A stretch of DNA of 64,000 nucleotides from Candidatus Hydrogenedentota bacterium (GTDB taxonomy: Bacteria > Hydrogenedentota > Hydrogenedentia > Hydrogenedentales > JAEUWI01): contig JACPGE010000056.1 in assembly GCA_016182605.1 (NCBI GenBank), positions 154,964 to 218,963 of the forward strand, read 5' to 3'. The translations under genes and the position numbers were made by a program. Shown in pieces: positions 2-8,574 of this stretch. Each line of letters starts with the position of its first letter. Position 1 is the first letter of the stretch. The notes beneath the pieces are model-generated. The model saw only the letters and a list, made by a program, of their open reading frames with translations. It was not told where the DNA came from and searched no databases.

Positions 2-385
2 CCGTGGTTAAAAGAAATTACGACCCGTACCGCGGCCAACTGGCTGCGGCGGAACAGCCTTCGCCTGCGCAATGAAACCCCGCTGCCGCACCGCAGAACA
101 ATCTCGATCGAAGATGCGCGGCGTGGGCCGGAGGGGGTGATGGAGCGCAATGAGCGCTATGAGCGGGTGCAGTTGGCGATAGACGCGTTGCCGGAACGTT
201 ACAGGCTTCCGGTGATGCTCCGGTATTTGCAGGAATTGTCGTATGACGAGATTAGCCGCTTTACAGGCGAGACCCGGGAGGAAATTCGGGGCTTGCTCTA
301 TAGGGCGGGGCGGCAGTTGCGAGAGTTGTTGACAGACATGGACGATCGGGAGGATGAATCGAAGTGGCCTCGTGCGCACAAATAG
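2..385 (+). CDS. ECF-type RNA polymerase sigma factor, 5' end cut by window
   Basis: The reading frame is open from the first bases of the window to the stop at 385 (127 residues visible), so the gene begins upstream. The visible N-terminal part (WLKEITTRTAANWLRRN) resembles the end of sigma region 2 with its DNA-melting helix. The C-terminal part (LPERYRLPVMLRYLQELSY and the following DEISRFTGETREEIRGLLYRAG) is a typical sigma-70 region 4 helix-turn-helix that reads the -35 element. The stop lies 22 bp inside the downstream anti-sigma gene, the usual translationally coupled sigma/anti-sigma pair. It presumably directs RNA polymerase to a small regulon when released by that partner. The trigger and the regulon are not visible here. 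Confidence 0.9.
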   Translation, partial: PWLKEITTRTAANWLRRNSLRLRNETPLPHRRTISIEDARRGPEGVMERNERYERVQLAIDALPERYRLPVMLRYLQELSYDEISRFTGETREEIRGLLYRAGRQLRELLTDMDDREDESKWPRAHK

Positions 386-1653
386 AGCTCTTGTTACAGG
401 GCTACATCGACGGTGAGCTGGACAAGCGCGAGCGTGCGGCGCTTGAGCATCATTTGAATCACTGTGCCTCCTGTTCCCAGGTTCTGGCGCAGCAAGAGCA
501 CTGCGTGCAGACTGTGCGTTCGGTGCTGCATGCCTCCCGCCTTCAGGGCGATTTGACCCCAGCCGTGCTGGCCCACCTCCCCGAGATGGATTCTCACATA
601 CGCCGGCGCAGACGGACTTGGATCCGGCAGACGGAGCATTGGCTTCTACCCATTTTGCGAACGGCCGCGCCCGCAGTGGCGGTTTCGGTGCTGGTGATTG
701 TGGCGATAGGGCTGTTGATTTCCTGGCCGCCCAGTTCGGGAAGCTCGGGCGAAGTGATCGGGATGATTACACAGCAACTTGGCCGCGCCCAGCAAAGCCA
801 CGTGACCAGCACGGAAACACGCAGCACGGAATTGGCCGGACGCGTTCACGGCAATGAGCGTTTTGAGACTTTCGACGGCGGTCAGTTGATGATTTCGCTT
901 GCGGGAGACACCCGGGTGAAACTCGACGCGAACACCCGCGTGGTGGTGCAGAATACCCGGAAGGTGGCGGTGGAGAAGGGGCGCGTGTGGTTGAATGTGG
1001 GCAAAGACGGCCGGCATTTCCGGGTCTTGACGCCGGAAGGCGCGGTGATGGTCTTTGGCACGACCTTTGATGTGAATGTGGTTTATGGCAGCACCGTTGT
1101 GACGGTGAAGGAGGGCGAGGTGCAGGTGGAGAACCTGAACGACTTCACCTCCATGACTTCTGGCGATCAGGTGCGGCTGGCCGACGACGTGGCGCAGTTG
1201 ACGCCTTTCAAGGTGGAGCCCGAAACCGTGATGGCATGGGCGGATCGCATTCAGGCCGATCCTGCTGCCGAGCAGATCTACAGCAAGGAGATCAAATCGC
1301 TGGGCACGCGCGTGGTTCAGGCGGAGAAGGTCTTCATCATCAATGGCGTGGATGCGCAGCAGGTTGAATCGATCTCGTTCCACTGGAAGCCGGACACCCG
1401 TGTGGATGGCCACAGTGGTTATGACGTGTATATTTCGGACGATCGCGGCGAAGCGTTGATCAAGGGCCGCTTGGAGGCGGATCTGTTCGCGGACAAATCG
1501 CACAGCAGTTTCGAAATGGCGGTTCCCGGGAACGTTTCCCTCAGTGGCGTGCGCATGTTGCAGATTAAGATTGTGCCCGATTCGTCAACGGGCAGCGTGG
1601 AAACGGCGTTTGATGTTAGTGCGACACGCATCCGCAGCGAGGCGGGCCTGTGA
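364..1653 (+). CDS. Membrane anti-sigma factor with zinc-finger (zf-HC2) and FecR domains
   Basis: 429 residues from a GTG start overlapping the sigma gene. Residues 1-40 carry the ZAS zinc-finger signature: C4, then H30-x3-C34-x2-C37, which normally clamps the cognate ECF sigma factor. A single membrane segment spans about 101-121. About 165-275 is a FecR-type beta domain (the GRVWLNVG and GTTFDVNVV stretches), which should face the periplasm. The last 150 residues are an unassigned beta-rich region. The combination suggests a cell-surface or periplasmic signal relayed to the overlapping sigma factor. No TonB receptor follows, unlike classical FecIR-FecA systems; a structured repeat array follows instead (1682-2179). 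Confidence 0.9.
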   Translation: MASCAQIELLLQGYIDGELDKRERAALEHHLNHCASCSQVLAQQEHCVQTVRSVLHASRLQGDLTPAVLAHLPEMDSHIRRRRRTWIRQTEHWLLPILRTAAPAVAVSVLVIVAIGLLISWPPSSGSSGEVIGMITQQLGRAQQSHVTSTETRSTELAGRVHGNERFETFDGGQLMISLAGDTRVKLDANTRVVVQNTRKVAVEKGRVWLNVGKDGRHFRVLTPEGAVMVFGTTFDVNVVYGSTVVTVKEGEVQVENLNDFTSMTSGDQVRLADDVAQLTPFKVEPETVMAWADRIQADPAAEQIYSKEIKSLGTRVVQAEKVFIINGVDAQQVESISFHWKPDTRVDGHSGYDVYISDDRGEALIKGRLEADLFADKSHSSFEMAVPGNVSLSGVRMLQIKIVPDSSTGSVETAFDVSATRIRSEAGL

Positions 1654-1681: not shown

Positions 1682-1778
1682 AGCAGCCGGGCTTGTGGAG
1701 TGTACGGGTAACTTTCTGCCTCACGTCACTCCTTCCCCAAGAGTACCTGCAGCCAGTAAGCTCCACTGGTCCGCTGCT
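1682..1778 (+). ncRNA. Candidate structured RNA unit 1
   Basis: Arm 1682-1700 pairs with 1761-1778: 17 pairs with one bulged C (1688) and one U-U mismatch (1694/1767). G-U pairs occur at 1691/1770 and 1693/1768. Inside the core, 1707-1715 pairs with 1739-1747 (8 pairs, A1711 bulged). Function is unknown and I do not recognise an Rfam family. Confidence 0.6.
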
Positions 1779-1814
1779 TGCACTTATAATTAAATCGTTT
1801 TTCTGCTCTCCAAA

Positions 1815-1913
1815 AAGCAGCCGGACTTGTGAAGCATACGGGTAACTTTCTGCCTCACGTCACTCCTTCCCCAAGAGTACCTGCAGCCAGTAGGTTTCGC
1901 GGGTCCGCTGCTT
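1815..1913 (+). ncRNA. Candidate structured RNA unit 2
   Basis: Arm 1816-1835 pairs with 1894-1912 through 19 pairs, with only C1822 bulged. Relative to unit 1 a G-C pair (1698/1763) has become A-U (1832/1897), a two-sided compensatory change. Four pairs are G-U in + strand RNA, and these would be A-C mismatches in a minus-strand transcript. Confidence 0.6.
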
Positions 1914-1950
1914 GCACTCATTCGAGGAGATTTTTTATTTGCTCTCCTAG

Positions 1951-2050
1951 AAGCAGCCGGGCTTGTGGAGCGTACGGGTAACTTTCTGCCTCACGTCACT
2001 CCTTCCCCAAGAGTTCCTGCAGCCAGTAGACTTTGCAGGCCCGGCTTCTT
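1951..2050 (+). ncRNA. Candidate structured RNA unit 3
   Basis: Arm 1955-1970 pairs with 2031-2046: 16 consecutive pairs, four of them G-U. The core carries T instead of A at 2015. That change is compatible with the inner helix if the bulge moves from an A to the neighbouring U. Confidence 0.6.
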
Positions 2051-2086
2051 CAATGCCTCATCCGTACCTAGACGTTTTTCGAAGAA

Positions 2087-2179
2087 GAGCCGGGCTTGTG
2101 GAATCTACGGGTAACTTTCTGCCTCACGTCACTCCTTCCCCAAGAGTTCCTGCAGCCAGTTGTTCCACAAGTCCGGCTC
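2087..2179 (+). ncRNA. Candidate structured RNA unit 4
   Basis: Arm 2087-2103 pairs with 2163-2179 through 17 uninterrupted pairs, one of them G-U (2094/2172). This is the most regular outer helix of the four. Its core at 2106-2160 is identical to that of unit 3. Confidence 0.6.
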
Positions 2180-2258
2180 AATTCCTTTGGCCATTCCGGC
2201 CACCCCCTCACGCTATGCCTTTTCTCTTCCCCAAAGCAACCGCCCGTTTTTTGTTTCG

Positions 2259-6414: not shown

Positions 6415-6558
6415 GCCGGCAATCGCCCCCGGCGCGCTCTTGCAGGCAGGCCATTTTACTGCGGGTGTTTTATATACCCGTTGGGGTGTGCTACCATTTG
6501 CGGGCGGATCCAGTACGGTTTTTCCACTTGTCCCAGAGCCCCACGAGGTACAATCCCC

Positions 6559-8574
6559 ATGCGTAAACGTCTCCTTTTCCTCTTCTTGGTGCTGCCCGGC
6601 GTGCTTCAGGCGCAAGAAGCCGCCGTCTCCCTCCAGTCCTCGGTCGCGGCGGCCGTGGACAAGGTCAAGCCGGCGCTTGTCCGCATCCACGTGGTGGAAA
6701 CCGATTACAGTGAAGGACGGGAGATCAAGTATGAAATCTCAGGGAGTGGGGCGGTGATCGACGCCTCAGGCTTTGTAATCACCAACCACCACGTTGCGGG
6801 CCACGCGAAGCAGTTGAAATGCGTCTTCTCCAACAAACAGGAAGTCCCGGCGGTACTGGTGGGCGGCGATCCCCTGACGGACATCGCGGTCATCAAGCTC
6901 CAACCCGAGAGCCCACAGACCTACCCCGTGGCCACCTTCGGCGATTCGGATGCGATGCAGGCCGGGGATCCGGTCATGGCGATGGGGAGCCCGCTTTCCA
7001 TTTCGCAGAGCGTGACTCTGGGCATCGTGAGCAATACCGAAATGATCCTGCCCTCATGGATGAACCGCTGGGGCGGCATGCAACAGGATGGCGAAGATGT
7101 GGGCGGGCTGGTGAAGTGGATTGCGCACGACGCGGAGATCCATGGCGGCAACTCGGGCGGCCCCTTGGTGAATATGCAGGGCGAGATAATCGGCATCAAC
7201 GAGATCAAGATGGGCCTGGCGGGGGCGATACCGGGCAATCTGGCGAAGCACGTGGCGCAGAAGCTGATCGAGTTTGGCCATGTGCCGCGGGCCTGGCTGG
7301 GGCTGGAGGTGCAATCCCGCTTGAAGCACCACGATATGGAGCGGGGTGTTTTGGTGAGCAGCATCCTCAAGGACTCGCCCGCGGCGAAGGCCGGATTGAA
7401 GTCCGGGGATATTGTCCTGAAGATCAATGATCTGGAAGTGGATTTGCAGTTTCAGGAACAACTTCCCGCGCTGAACTTCGTGCTTTCCGAGTTGCCCGTG
7501 GGACAGCCCGCGCGTTTTCTGGTCTTGCGCGGCGCGCAGGAGCAAACGATGGAGGTGACGCCGGAGGAGCGGGAGAAGCGCGAGTCGAAGCAGCACGAAG
7601 TGAAGGAATGGGGATTGACCGTGCGCGACATCTCCATGCTGCAGGCGAAGGAATTGAAGCGGGATTCGACCGACGGCGTGCTGGTGACCACTGTGCGGCC
7701 AGGTGGCGCTGCGGGTGCGGCGAAGCCGGAAATCCGGGAGAAAGACATTCTCGTGGAAGTAGGCGGCACCCGGGTGAAGAATGTGGAAGAGCTTCGCGCG
7801 GCCACGGCCACAATTACCGCGAACGCGACGGAGCCGGTGGCCACACTGGCGGTATTTGAGCGCAAGACCGAACACTATCTCACGGTGGTGAAGGTCGGCG
7901 TTTCCGACCTGAAAGATCCCGGTCTTGAAGTGAAGAAGGCCTGGCTGCCCGTGGAGACCCAGGTCATTACGCGCGACATCGCCGGGCTGCTCAAAGACGA
8001 CGCGCTGACCGGATTCCGCATCACGCAGATCTACGAAGGCAGCACCGCGGAGAAGGCGGGCCTGAAAGTGGGCGACCTGATTACGGCGGTGGATGGAGAG
8101 GCCTTGACCGCCTCGGCCCCGGAGCACTACGAAGAGCTTCAGACTTTCGTGCGCCAGTATCGCGTGGGGGACTCCGCCGAACTGGTGGTGCTGCGTGGAG
8201 CGGAAACGCTGAAGGTGCCGGTGGCCTTGGAGCGCGCCCCCATGCTGGAGCGCGAAATGAAGAAATACCGCAACGACGACTTTGAGTTCACCGTGCGCGA
8301 CATTACCTTCTTCGATCGGGCGAAGGAACGCTGGCAGGAAGAACAGACCGGCGTGCTGGTGGATGAGGTGAAGCCGGGAAGCTGGGCCTCGCTGGGCGAA
8401 CTGAGCGTGGGGGACCTGCTCTTGCAGATTAACGACCAGGACATGACCACGGTGGAGGAGGTGCGCGCGGCGATGGAACGCATTGCCGCGGAGAAGTCCT
8501 CTTTTGTGATCTTGAAGGTGATGCGCGGCATTCACCAGCGCTTTATTGAACTTGAACCCAAGTGGGAATCCTGA
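6559..8574 (+). CDS. HtrA/DegP-like serine protease with four PDZ domains
   Basis: 671 residues with a signal peptide ending at about LQAQ (19). The trypsin-like domain retains the triad H78 (TNHHVAG), D108 (PLTDIAVIK) and S199 (GGNSGGPLV). Four PDZ domains follow, beginning near AWLGLEVQSRL, WGLTVRDISML, about GFRITQIYEGS and EFTVRDITFFD. Classical DegP/DegS proteins have one or two, so this is an expanded form. It should act in the periplasm in protein quality control or regulated proteolysis. ATG 6559 is chosen for GAGGT nine bases upstream and the clean signal peptide. A degenerate paralogue follows 19 bp downstream, probably in one transcript. Confidence 0.93.
   Translation: MRKRLLFLFLVLPGVLQAQEAAVSLQSSVAAAVDKVKPALVRIHVVETDYSEGREIKYEISGSGAVIDASGFVITNHHVAGHAKQLKCVFSNKQEVPAVLVGGDPLTDIAVIKLQPESPQTYPVATFGDSDAMQAGDPVMAMGSPLSISQSVTLGIVSNTEMILPSWMNRWGGMQQDGEDVGGLVKWIAHDAEIHGGNSGGPLVNMQGEIIGINEIKMGLAGAIPGNLAKHVAQKLIEFGHVPRAWLGLEVQSRLKHHDMERGVLVSSILKDSPAAKAGLKSGDIVLKINDLEVDLQFQEQLPALNFVLSELPVGQPARFLVLRGAQEQTMEVTPEEREKRESKQHEVKEWGLTVRDISMLQAKELKRDSTDGVLVTTVRPGGAAGAAKPEIREKDILVEVGGTRVKNVEELRAATATITANATEPVATLAVFERKTEHYLTVVKVGVSDLKDPGLEVKKAWLPVETQVITRDIAGLLKDDALTGFRITQIYEGSTAEKAGLKVGDLITAVDGEALTASAPEHYEELQTFVRQYRVGDSAELVVLRGAETLKVPVALERAPMLEREMKKYRNDDFEFTVRDITFFDRAKERWQEEQTGVLVDEVKPGSWASLGELSVGDLLLQINDQDMTTVEEVRAAMERIAAEKSSFVILKVMRGIHQRFIELEPKWES

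Follow-up and report, generated by a model that had tools for sequence, protein, structure and literature searches.

A stretch of 64,000 nucleotides from the genome of a Candidatus Hydrogenedentota bacterium (hereafter, the window) carries at positions 1682-2181 four direct copies of a hairpin, ~97 nt each and spaced 133-136 nt from start to start, behind an ECF sigma factor gene and an anti-sigma factor gene. These are the only copies in the source genome (6.76 Mb in 130 contigs). They raise the question of whether the array is a DNA element or part of an RNA and, in the latter case, on what this RNA acts.

Four tandem hairpins in the window

The original prediction described four tandem hairpins with arms that vary yet still pair, and both the sequence and the folding bear this out: the outer arms are ~17-20% divergent between the compared unit pairs with pairing kept, and all four units fold better than their dinucleotide shuffles (z -2.6 to -5.9). 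The compensation claimed for one column can be read directly from the sequence as a two-sided change, G1698-C1763 in unit 1 versus A1832-U1897 in unit 2. A 55-nt core is the same in all units save for the one A/T site reported earlier, A1745 being replaced by T2015 in unit 3 and by T in unit 4 too. The description of this core as fixed holds within the array of the window; it does not hold phylum-wide, where the conserved part is ~36 nt and the remainder of the 55 nt reflects similarity within this one array. The features of the locus are listed in Table 1. A further stretch, CTCTTCCCCAAAG at ~2223-2237, ~45 nt past unit 4, nearly matches the anti-SD seed of the loop and has no hairpin; it was not recognized by our covariance model, and is possibly a remnant unit or a chance occurrence.

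Table 1. Coordinates of the host genes, hairpin units and conserved loops in the window
Feature	Position	Strand	Basis
ECF sigma factor gene, 3' part (full 198 aa; L100:6753-7349; start ~212 nt before window)	2..385	+	Sigma70_r2, Sigma70_r4_2, sigma70-ECF superfamily
Anti-sigma factor gene, 429 aa, N-terminal zf-HC2 + FecR domain	364..1653	+	PF13490, PF04773 above cut-off
Hairpin unit 1	1682..1778 (arms 1682-1701 / 1760-1778)	+	Repeat and fold, covariance model 99 bits
Unit 1 conserved loop	1715..1750	+	Kept across phylum; complementary to sigma leaders
Unit 1 seed A' UCUGCCUCACG	1715-1725	+	Part of conserved loop
Unit 1 anti-SD seed B' CUCCUUCCCCAAG	1729-1741	+	Part of conserved loop
Hairpin unit 2	1815..1913	+	Repeat and fold, covariance model 99 bits
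Unit 2 conserved loop	1849..1884 (A' 1849-1859, B' 1863-1875)	+	Phylum conservation
Hairpin unit 3	1951..2049	+	Repeat and fold, covariance model 98 bits
Unit 3 conserved loop	1985..2020 (A' 1985-1995, B' 1999-2011)	+	Phylum conservation
Hairpin unit 4	2084..2181	+	Repeat and fold, covariance model 94 bits
Unit 4 conserved loop	2118..2153 (A' 2118-2128, B' 2132-2144)	+	Phylum conservation

Covariation and strand bias point to a structured RNA

Since the four units of the window alone provide thin covariation, the case for it is carried by two larger alignments. In 15 gap-free units (two from the window and 13 from relatives), 12 of the 19 stem pairs show two-sided changes, and 89% of the cells are paired, compared with at most 44% when slid, a level reached by none of 500 shuffles. 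In 85 units from many families across the order, 88% of the cells were paired (sliding left at most 53%) and 389 were two-sided; the covariation score was 0.62, compared with 0.23 after shuffling. This larger alignment was fitted to the covariance model and is hence biased towards it. The covariation that had been proposed as a test is thus strong. With the loop held open, the + strand fold is more stable than the - strand fold in 50 of 66 units (Wilcoxon p = 1e-6), and there are 210 closing G-U pairs on the + strand versus 115 on the - strand (Wilcoxon p = 2e-5), in agreement with the claim that the wobble pairs suit the + strand only. This use of G-U pairs indicates that the RNA is on the + strand, the same as the operon, and together with the covariation it indicates that the array is a conserved structured RNA family, as had been supposed, and not a DNA palindrome.

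Tandem imperfect palindromes with variable arms could also belong to a DNA element, such as a transposon end, an attC site or a recombination hairpin. However, we consider this extremely unlikely: apart from the + strand G-U bias, the array occupies one fixed chromosomal site in many families, which is not the distribution of a mobile element, and a check against phage and plasmid records found no match to it. Moreover, individual units are positionally orthologous between genera. The arms of L047.1 and L049.1 are 93% identical versus 63% for L047.1 and L047.2, and those of L037.1 and L038.1 are 83% identical versus 61% for L037.1 and L037.2; since same-position units of related genomes are more alike than units within an array, the copies appear to be old there and not recent duplications. 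We also rejected the array as a coding sequence, since loops with one- and two-base insertions (CUUUCCCC and CCCCAAGAGAG) leave no conserved frame.

Each hairpin consists of a variable stem of up to ~20 bp around an invariant C-rich loop, UCUGCCUCACGUCACUCCUUCCCCAAG. The ~36 nt that are nearly invariant phylum-wide include stretches outside both seeds (UCAC and GAGUACCUG), and an inner fold is predicted in the core (CUGC/GCAG and GU-ACUC/GAGU-AC). Both features would suit a protein- or ligand-binding RNA, that is, an aptamer or a processing or stability element at the operon's 3' end, to which the leader match described below would be secondary. However, the inner pairs are broken in several lineages (GAAU, GAAAU, GCAG missing), which favours a single-stranded loop, and such an RNA would leave unexplained the leader complementarity and its absence in array-less genomes; we therefore regard this explanation as quite improbable.

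The family is new and appears confined to Hydrogenedentota

We built a covariance model from the 15 gap-free units and applied it with strict filters, by which weak matches were possibly lost. It detected the family in 53 of the 68 genomes of the order and in none of 271 other genomes, with 1 to 4 units each, so that the search of other genomes proposed earlier returned matches and the multi-copy character of the element, with four units in the window, is confirmed. A BLAST search of 100 related genomes recovered the element from most relatives within the order. Outside the order it gave no convincing match, only a single marginal one (E = 0.02). An exact-pattern scan of a named genome collection returned almost solely records of Candidatus Hydrogenedentota or Hydrogenedens; the few others are labelled uncultured bacterium or, in one case, Nitrospiraceae, and this last record (3,296 bases) bears the same sigma/anti-sigma pair and the units of L051. 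These results indicate that, among the genomes sampled, the family is confined to Hydrogenedentota.

In agreement with the novelty claimed for it, a scan of the array against Rfam 15 gave no family at the gathering threshold, and the sole match at E <= 5 was mir-1549, with 16.8 bits against a cut-off of 91. In the open-access literature searched, we came across no description of an RNA of this kind from Hydrogenedentota. Judged by these comparisons, this is a genuinely new RNA family that is absent from Rfam.

The array is linked to the sigma/anti-sigma operon

An orthologous anti-sigma gene lies upstream on the same strand in 36 of the 40 array loci that we read, as an autoregulatory 3'UTR RNA directly downstream of its operon would require, and the other four loci fall at contig edges or in gaps of the ORF calling. 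As a rule, an ECF sigma gene, of generic ECF type by its domain matches, precedes the anti-sigma gene, and the median distance from the anti-sigma stop to the first hairpin is 47 nt. Nearly all array-bearing genomes have a single array site. Of the 14 array-less genomes of the order, 10 also have no anti-sigma gene at E <= 1e-20; the four exceptions belong to a single genus, g2, which keeps the gene pair, and reading the region downstream of the pair revealed no array. The synteny thus upholds the claim that the array belongs with the sigma/anti-sigma operon. A simple scan of positions 1400-2450 gave no terminator-like site, and the only + strand promoter-like match in such a scan is at 1407-1434, inside the anti-sigma gene, with none after 1434. 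The simplest reading of these results, we infer, is that the array is co-transcribed with the operon as its 3'UTR.

The genes downstream of the array vary between lineages in both identity and strand, whereas the upstream pair is constant. A riboswitch-like cis-regulatory leader of a downstream gene, for instance one for metal uptake, might be suspected from the ZnuA-type transporter operon 3' of the array in the window (ZnuA-like gene at 2390), and a link to metal uptake had indeed been suggested. However, the ZnuA transporter adjoins the array in some lineages only, the downstream gene being otherwise unrelated, so that no downstream gene is conserved, and a repeat box of the transporter's own, GCCTAAAAATTA, occurs twice at 2259-2287, upstream of the ZnuA-like gene. 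The suggested link therefore fails, regulation of metal uptake by the hairpins is rejected by the synteny, and we hold a cis-acting leader to be most improbable. The GCCTAAAAATTA pair is likely a metal-regulator box separate from the hairpins; a protein that looks by eye like DtxR/MntR is encoded beside the same transporter in L028 and L042.

Several other elements were observed at these loci. A DegP/HtrA-type serine protease with several PDZ domains is encoded at 6481-8574 of the window, and its relatives are found near the array in 11 of the 40 loci, the window included, which hints at an envelope-stress role for the circuit. Upstream of the sigma gene (in L100 at ~6617-6645, outside the window) there is a recurrent palindrome, GTTCCANNNTGGAAC, with CGTG after it; it occurs about once per genome, mostly at the sigma operon, and is probably the operon's operator or promoter. 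In addition, an 11-mer, ACAGTTGAATC (with up to two mismatches), is found before the sigma start and again before the first hairpin in about one third of the loci, including L041, L046, L047, L049 and L064; it also follows some stop codons and, in three genomes (L273, L275 and L278), lies 110-140 nt before fusA. There are 34 exact copies of it in 9 genomes, versus 2 of the reversed pattern.

The conserved loop is complementary to the leader of its own sigma gene

The loop is complementary to the leader of the sigma gene of its own operon at two sites, A and B. Site A (CGUGAGGCAGA), found in the leaders as CGTGAGGCAGA, whole or in part, lies ~25-60 nt before the sigma start codon and matches A', the 5' part of the loop. 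Site B, at the sigma gene's Shine-Dalgarno region, matches B', the longest match being 12 nt (CUUGGGGAAGGA), a length reached in L047; this region, complementary to the loop, reads CTTGGGGAAGGA in L041 and L047, TTGGGGAAGGA in L029 and L051, and GGGGAAGGAG in L025, L026 and L028. Site B overlaps the Shine-Dalgarno sequence, which any C-rich loop would partly match, although other gene starts served as the control. Since the whole-loop duplex energy was a weak statistic (mean z -0.86 versus +0.10), we used the longest perfect complement.

A perfect loop match of at least 9 nt, as would be expected if the RNA acted on its own ribosome-binding region, occurs at 13 of 29 sigma starts, whereas the 139 starts of other genes at these loci show none (Mann-Whitney p = 2e-8); families f1, f2, f3, f4, f5, f8, f10 and f11 each have a genome with such a match. 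Likewise, site A is matched over at least 7 nt in 15 of 38 sigma leaders versus 3 of 159 control starts, and site B over at least 8 nt in 20 of 38 versus 3 of 159. When the loop was compared with the leader without complementing it, matches were at most 7 nt throughout, and the anti-sigma gene start showed no clear enrichment as a loop target. Predicted duplex energies reach -24 kcal/mol at B and -19 kcal/mol at A. In tests computed, like the other loop-leader tests here, without phylogenetic correction, loops fit their own leaders better than swapped ones (68 of 5000 permutations overall), chiefly at A (1 of 5000), while block B alone shows no significant loop-leader co-variation (364 of 5000). 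The loop of L059 and L060, which has the extra U of CUUUCCCC, faces GGGAAA(G) in the leader. In the leaders of the four genomes of the array-less genus g2, GGGGAAGG is absent and the loop match is at most 8 nt. Neither site is clear in 13 of the 39 array-bearing genomes tested, or about one third (much of f5, all of f7, and G011), which may have a different target or a misplaced start codon.

The leader of the source genome itself, ~210-240 nt upstream of window base 1 (contig C110), contains AGGCAGA (7 nt at A) and CUUGGGG-CC-AGGAG, the latter predicted to form at site B a 7+5 bp duplex with an internal loop (-20 kcal/mol). The joint chance of these matches in shuffled leaders is ~1.2% (p about 0.012). 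Since this match is only moderate, the argument is carried by the family and not by this genome alone.

The loop might instead belong to a family of trans-acting small RNAs of the sigma regulon, in which an anti-SD loop represses many mRNAs, that of sigma being just one of them. C-rich anti-SD loops are typical of multi-target small RNAs, the loop is conserved even in lineages without a clear match in the sigma leader, and a multi-copy arrangement would suit dosage. However, when we searched the 68 genomes with a strict motif (TTGGGGAAGG followed by a start codon), by which weaker targets were possibly missed, the sigma gene was the sole target recurring in more than two genomes, an NfeD-like gene recurring in two only, and array-less genomes gave similar motif counts. 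We thus consider a trans-acting family unlikely, though it deserves to be kept in mind.

A proposed autoregulatory 3'UTR RNA

We propose, with a probability of roughly two in three, that the array is the 3'UTR of the ECF sigma/anti-sigma operon and acts as a multi-copy antisense regulator of that same operon. Family, structure, strand, synteny, co-loss and complementarity are read from the sequences; from these we infer the transcription, processing, repressive action and physiological sense of the array. In the proposed mechanism, the strong variable stem would present the invariant C-rich loop, whose seed B' would pair with the Shine-Dalgarno region of the sigma gene in the same operon and whose seed A' would pair with the second site upstream, either within one long mRNA or through hairpins released as small RNAs. 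Such pairing would keep ribosomes from entering the sigma message and might expose this message to double-strand cleavage, so that sigma output would fall as full-length operon transcripts accumulate, resulting in negative feedback.

The two sites may reflect more than one pairing event. Site A precedes site B, read 5' to 3', in both the loop and the leader (L025-L064); given this shared order, no uninterrupted antiparallel helix can join one loop to both sites. Of 24 multi-copy genomes, 14 have both sites, versus 2 of 15 with a single copy (Fisher p = 0.008, uncorrected for kinship). The two observations would be accounted for by two hairpins acting on two sites, and we tentatively put forward, as a possibility to which we give well below even odds, that the RNA is a third component of the ECF sigma/anti-sigma switch, in which two loops of the same array clamp two leader sites and the numbers of hairpins and sites co-evolve.

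As a type of regulation, this is very probably an autoregulatory 3'UTR RNA, judging from its position and complementarity, in an unusual multi-copy form and host operon. Among the closest cases is the icaR mRNA of Staphylococcus aureus, in which the 3'UTR motif UCCCCUG pairs with the mRNA's own Shine-Dalgarno region, followed by RNase III cleavage (PMC3868564). Both have a C-rich 3'UTR motif of a regulator mRNA complementary to the Shine-Dalgarno region of the same mRNA. However, icaR has one motif in one gene, with no tandem array and in an unrelated sequence and organism, whereas here we find a covarying hairpin family, an ECF sigma/anti-sigma operon and a second site; furthermore, pairing and cleavage were demonstrated for icaR and are deduced here. 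The autoregulatory small RNAs OppZ and CarZ of Vibrio cholerae are derived from 3'UTRs, and there too RNA from an operon's 3' end pairs with the parental transcript and inhibits translation in negative feedback, as we suppose for the array; they differ in being single small RNAs released by RNase E, with OppZ relying on Hfq (PMC7398697, PMC9438474), whereas here the copies, predicted from genomic data, are tandem hairpins and the putative target is the first gene, a transcription regulator.

Several near-alike small RNAs with a shared conserved pairing region are also known from Listeria (LhrC1-5), Neisseria (sibling sRNAs) and Bacteroides (FopS) (PMC5880928, PMC9973317, PMC11697453). These are known to act on other genes, FopS on the translation initiation regions of susC-type mRNAs, whereas the copies described here lie behind the candidate target operon and match its own leader; we set them apart by their descriptions, the sequence comparison being the Rfam scan. 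Finally, StsR of Rhodobacter sphaeroides is likewise a small RNA in a sigma-factor circuit, with the mRNA of the ECF-type sigma factor rpoE as its target, but RpoHI/RpoHII control it, and neither a place in the rpoE operon nor a tandem arrangement is described for it (PMC8307010).

Implications

Accounts of sigma/anti-sigma pairs normally invoke only protein-protein switching and promoter autoregulation. Our results link a structured RNA family with a particular pair of this kind in most of the uncultured phylum Hydrogenedentota, and they yield a specific prediction, namely, that the loop pairs with the sigma ribosome-binding site, for which the covariance model and the target pair are now on hand. 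If this is true, the few experimentally described cases of autoregulation by 5'-3' UTR pairing or by 3'UTR-derived small RNAs would gain a broadly conserved, multi-copy form. Should the two-site arrangement also hold, the array would amount to a multivalent RNA device for feedback that most of the phylum has retained.
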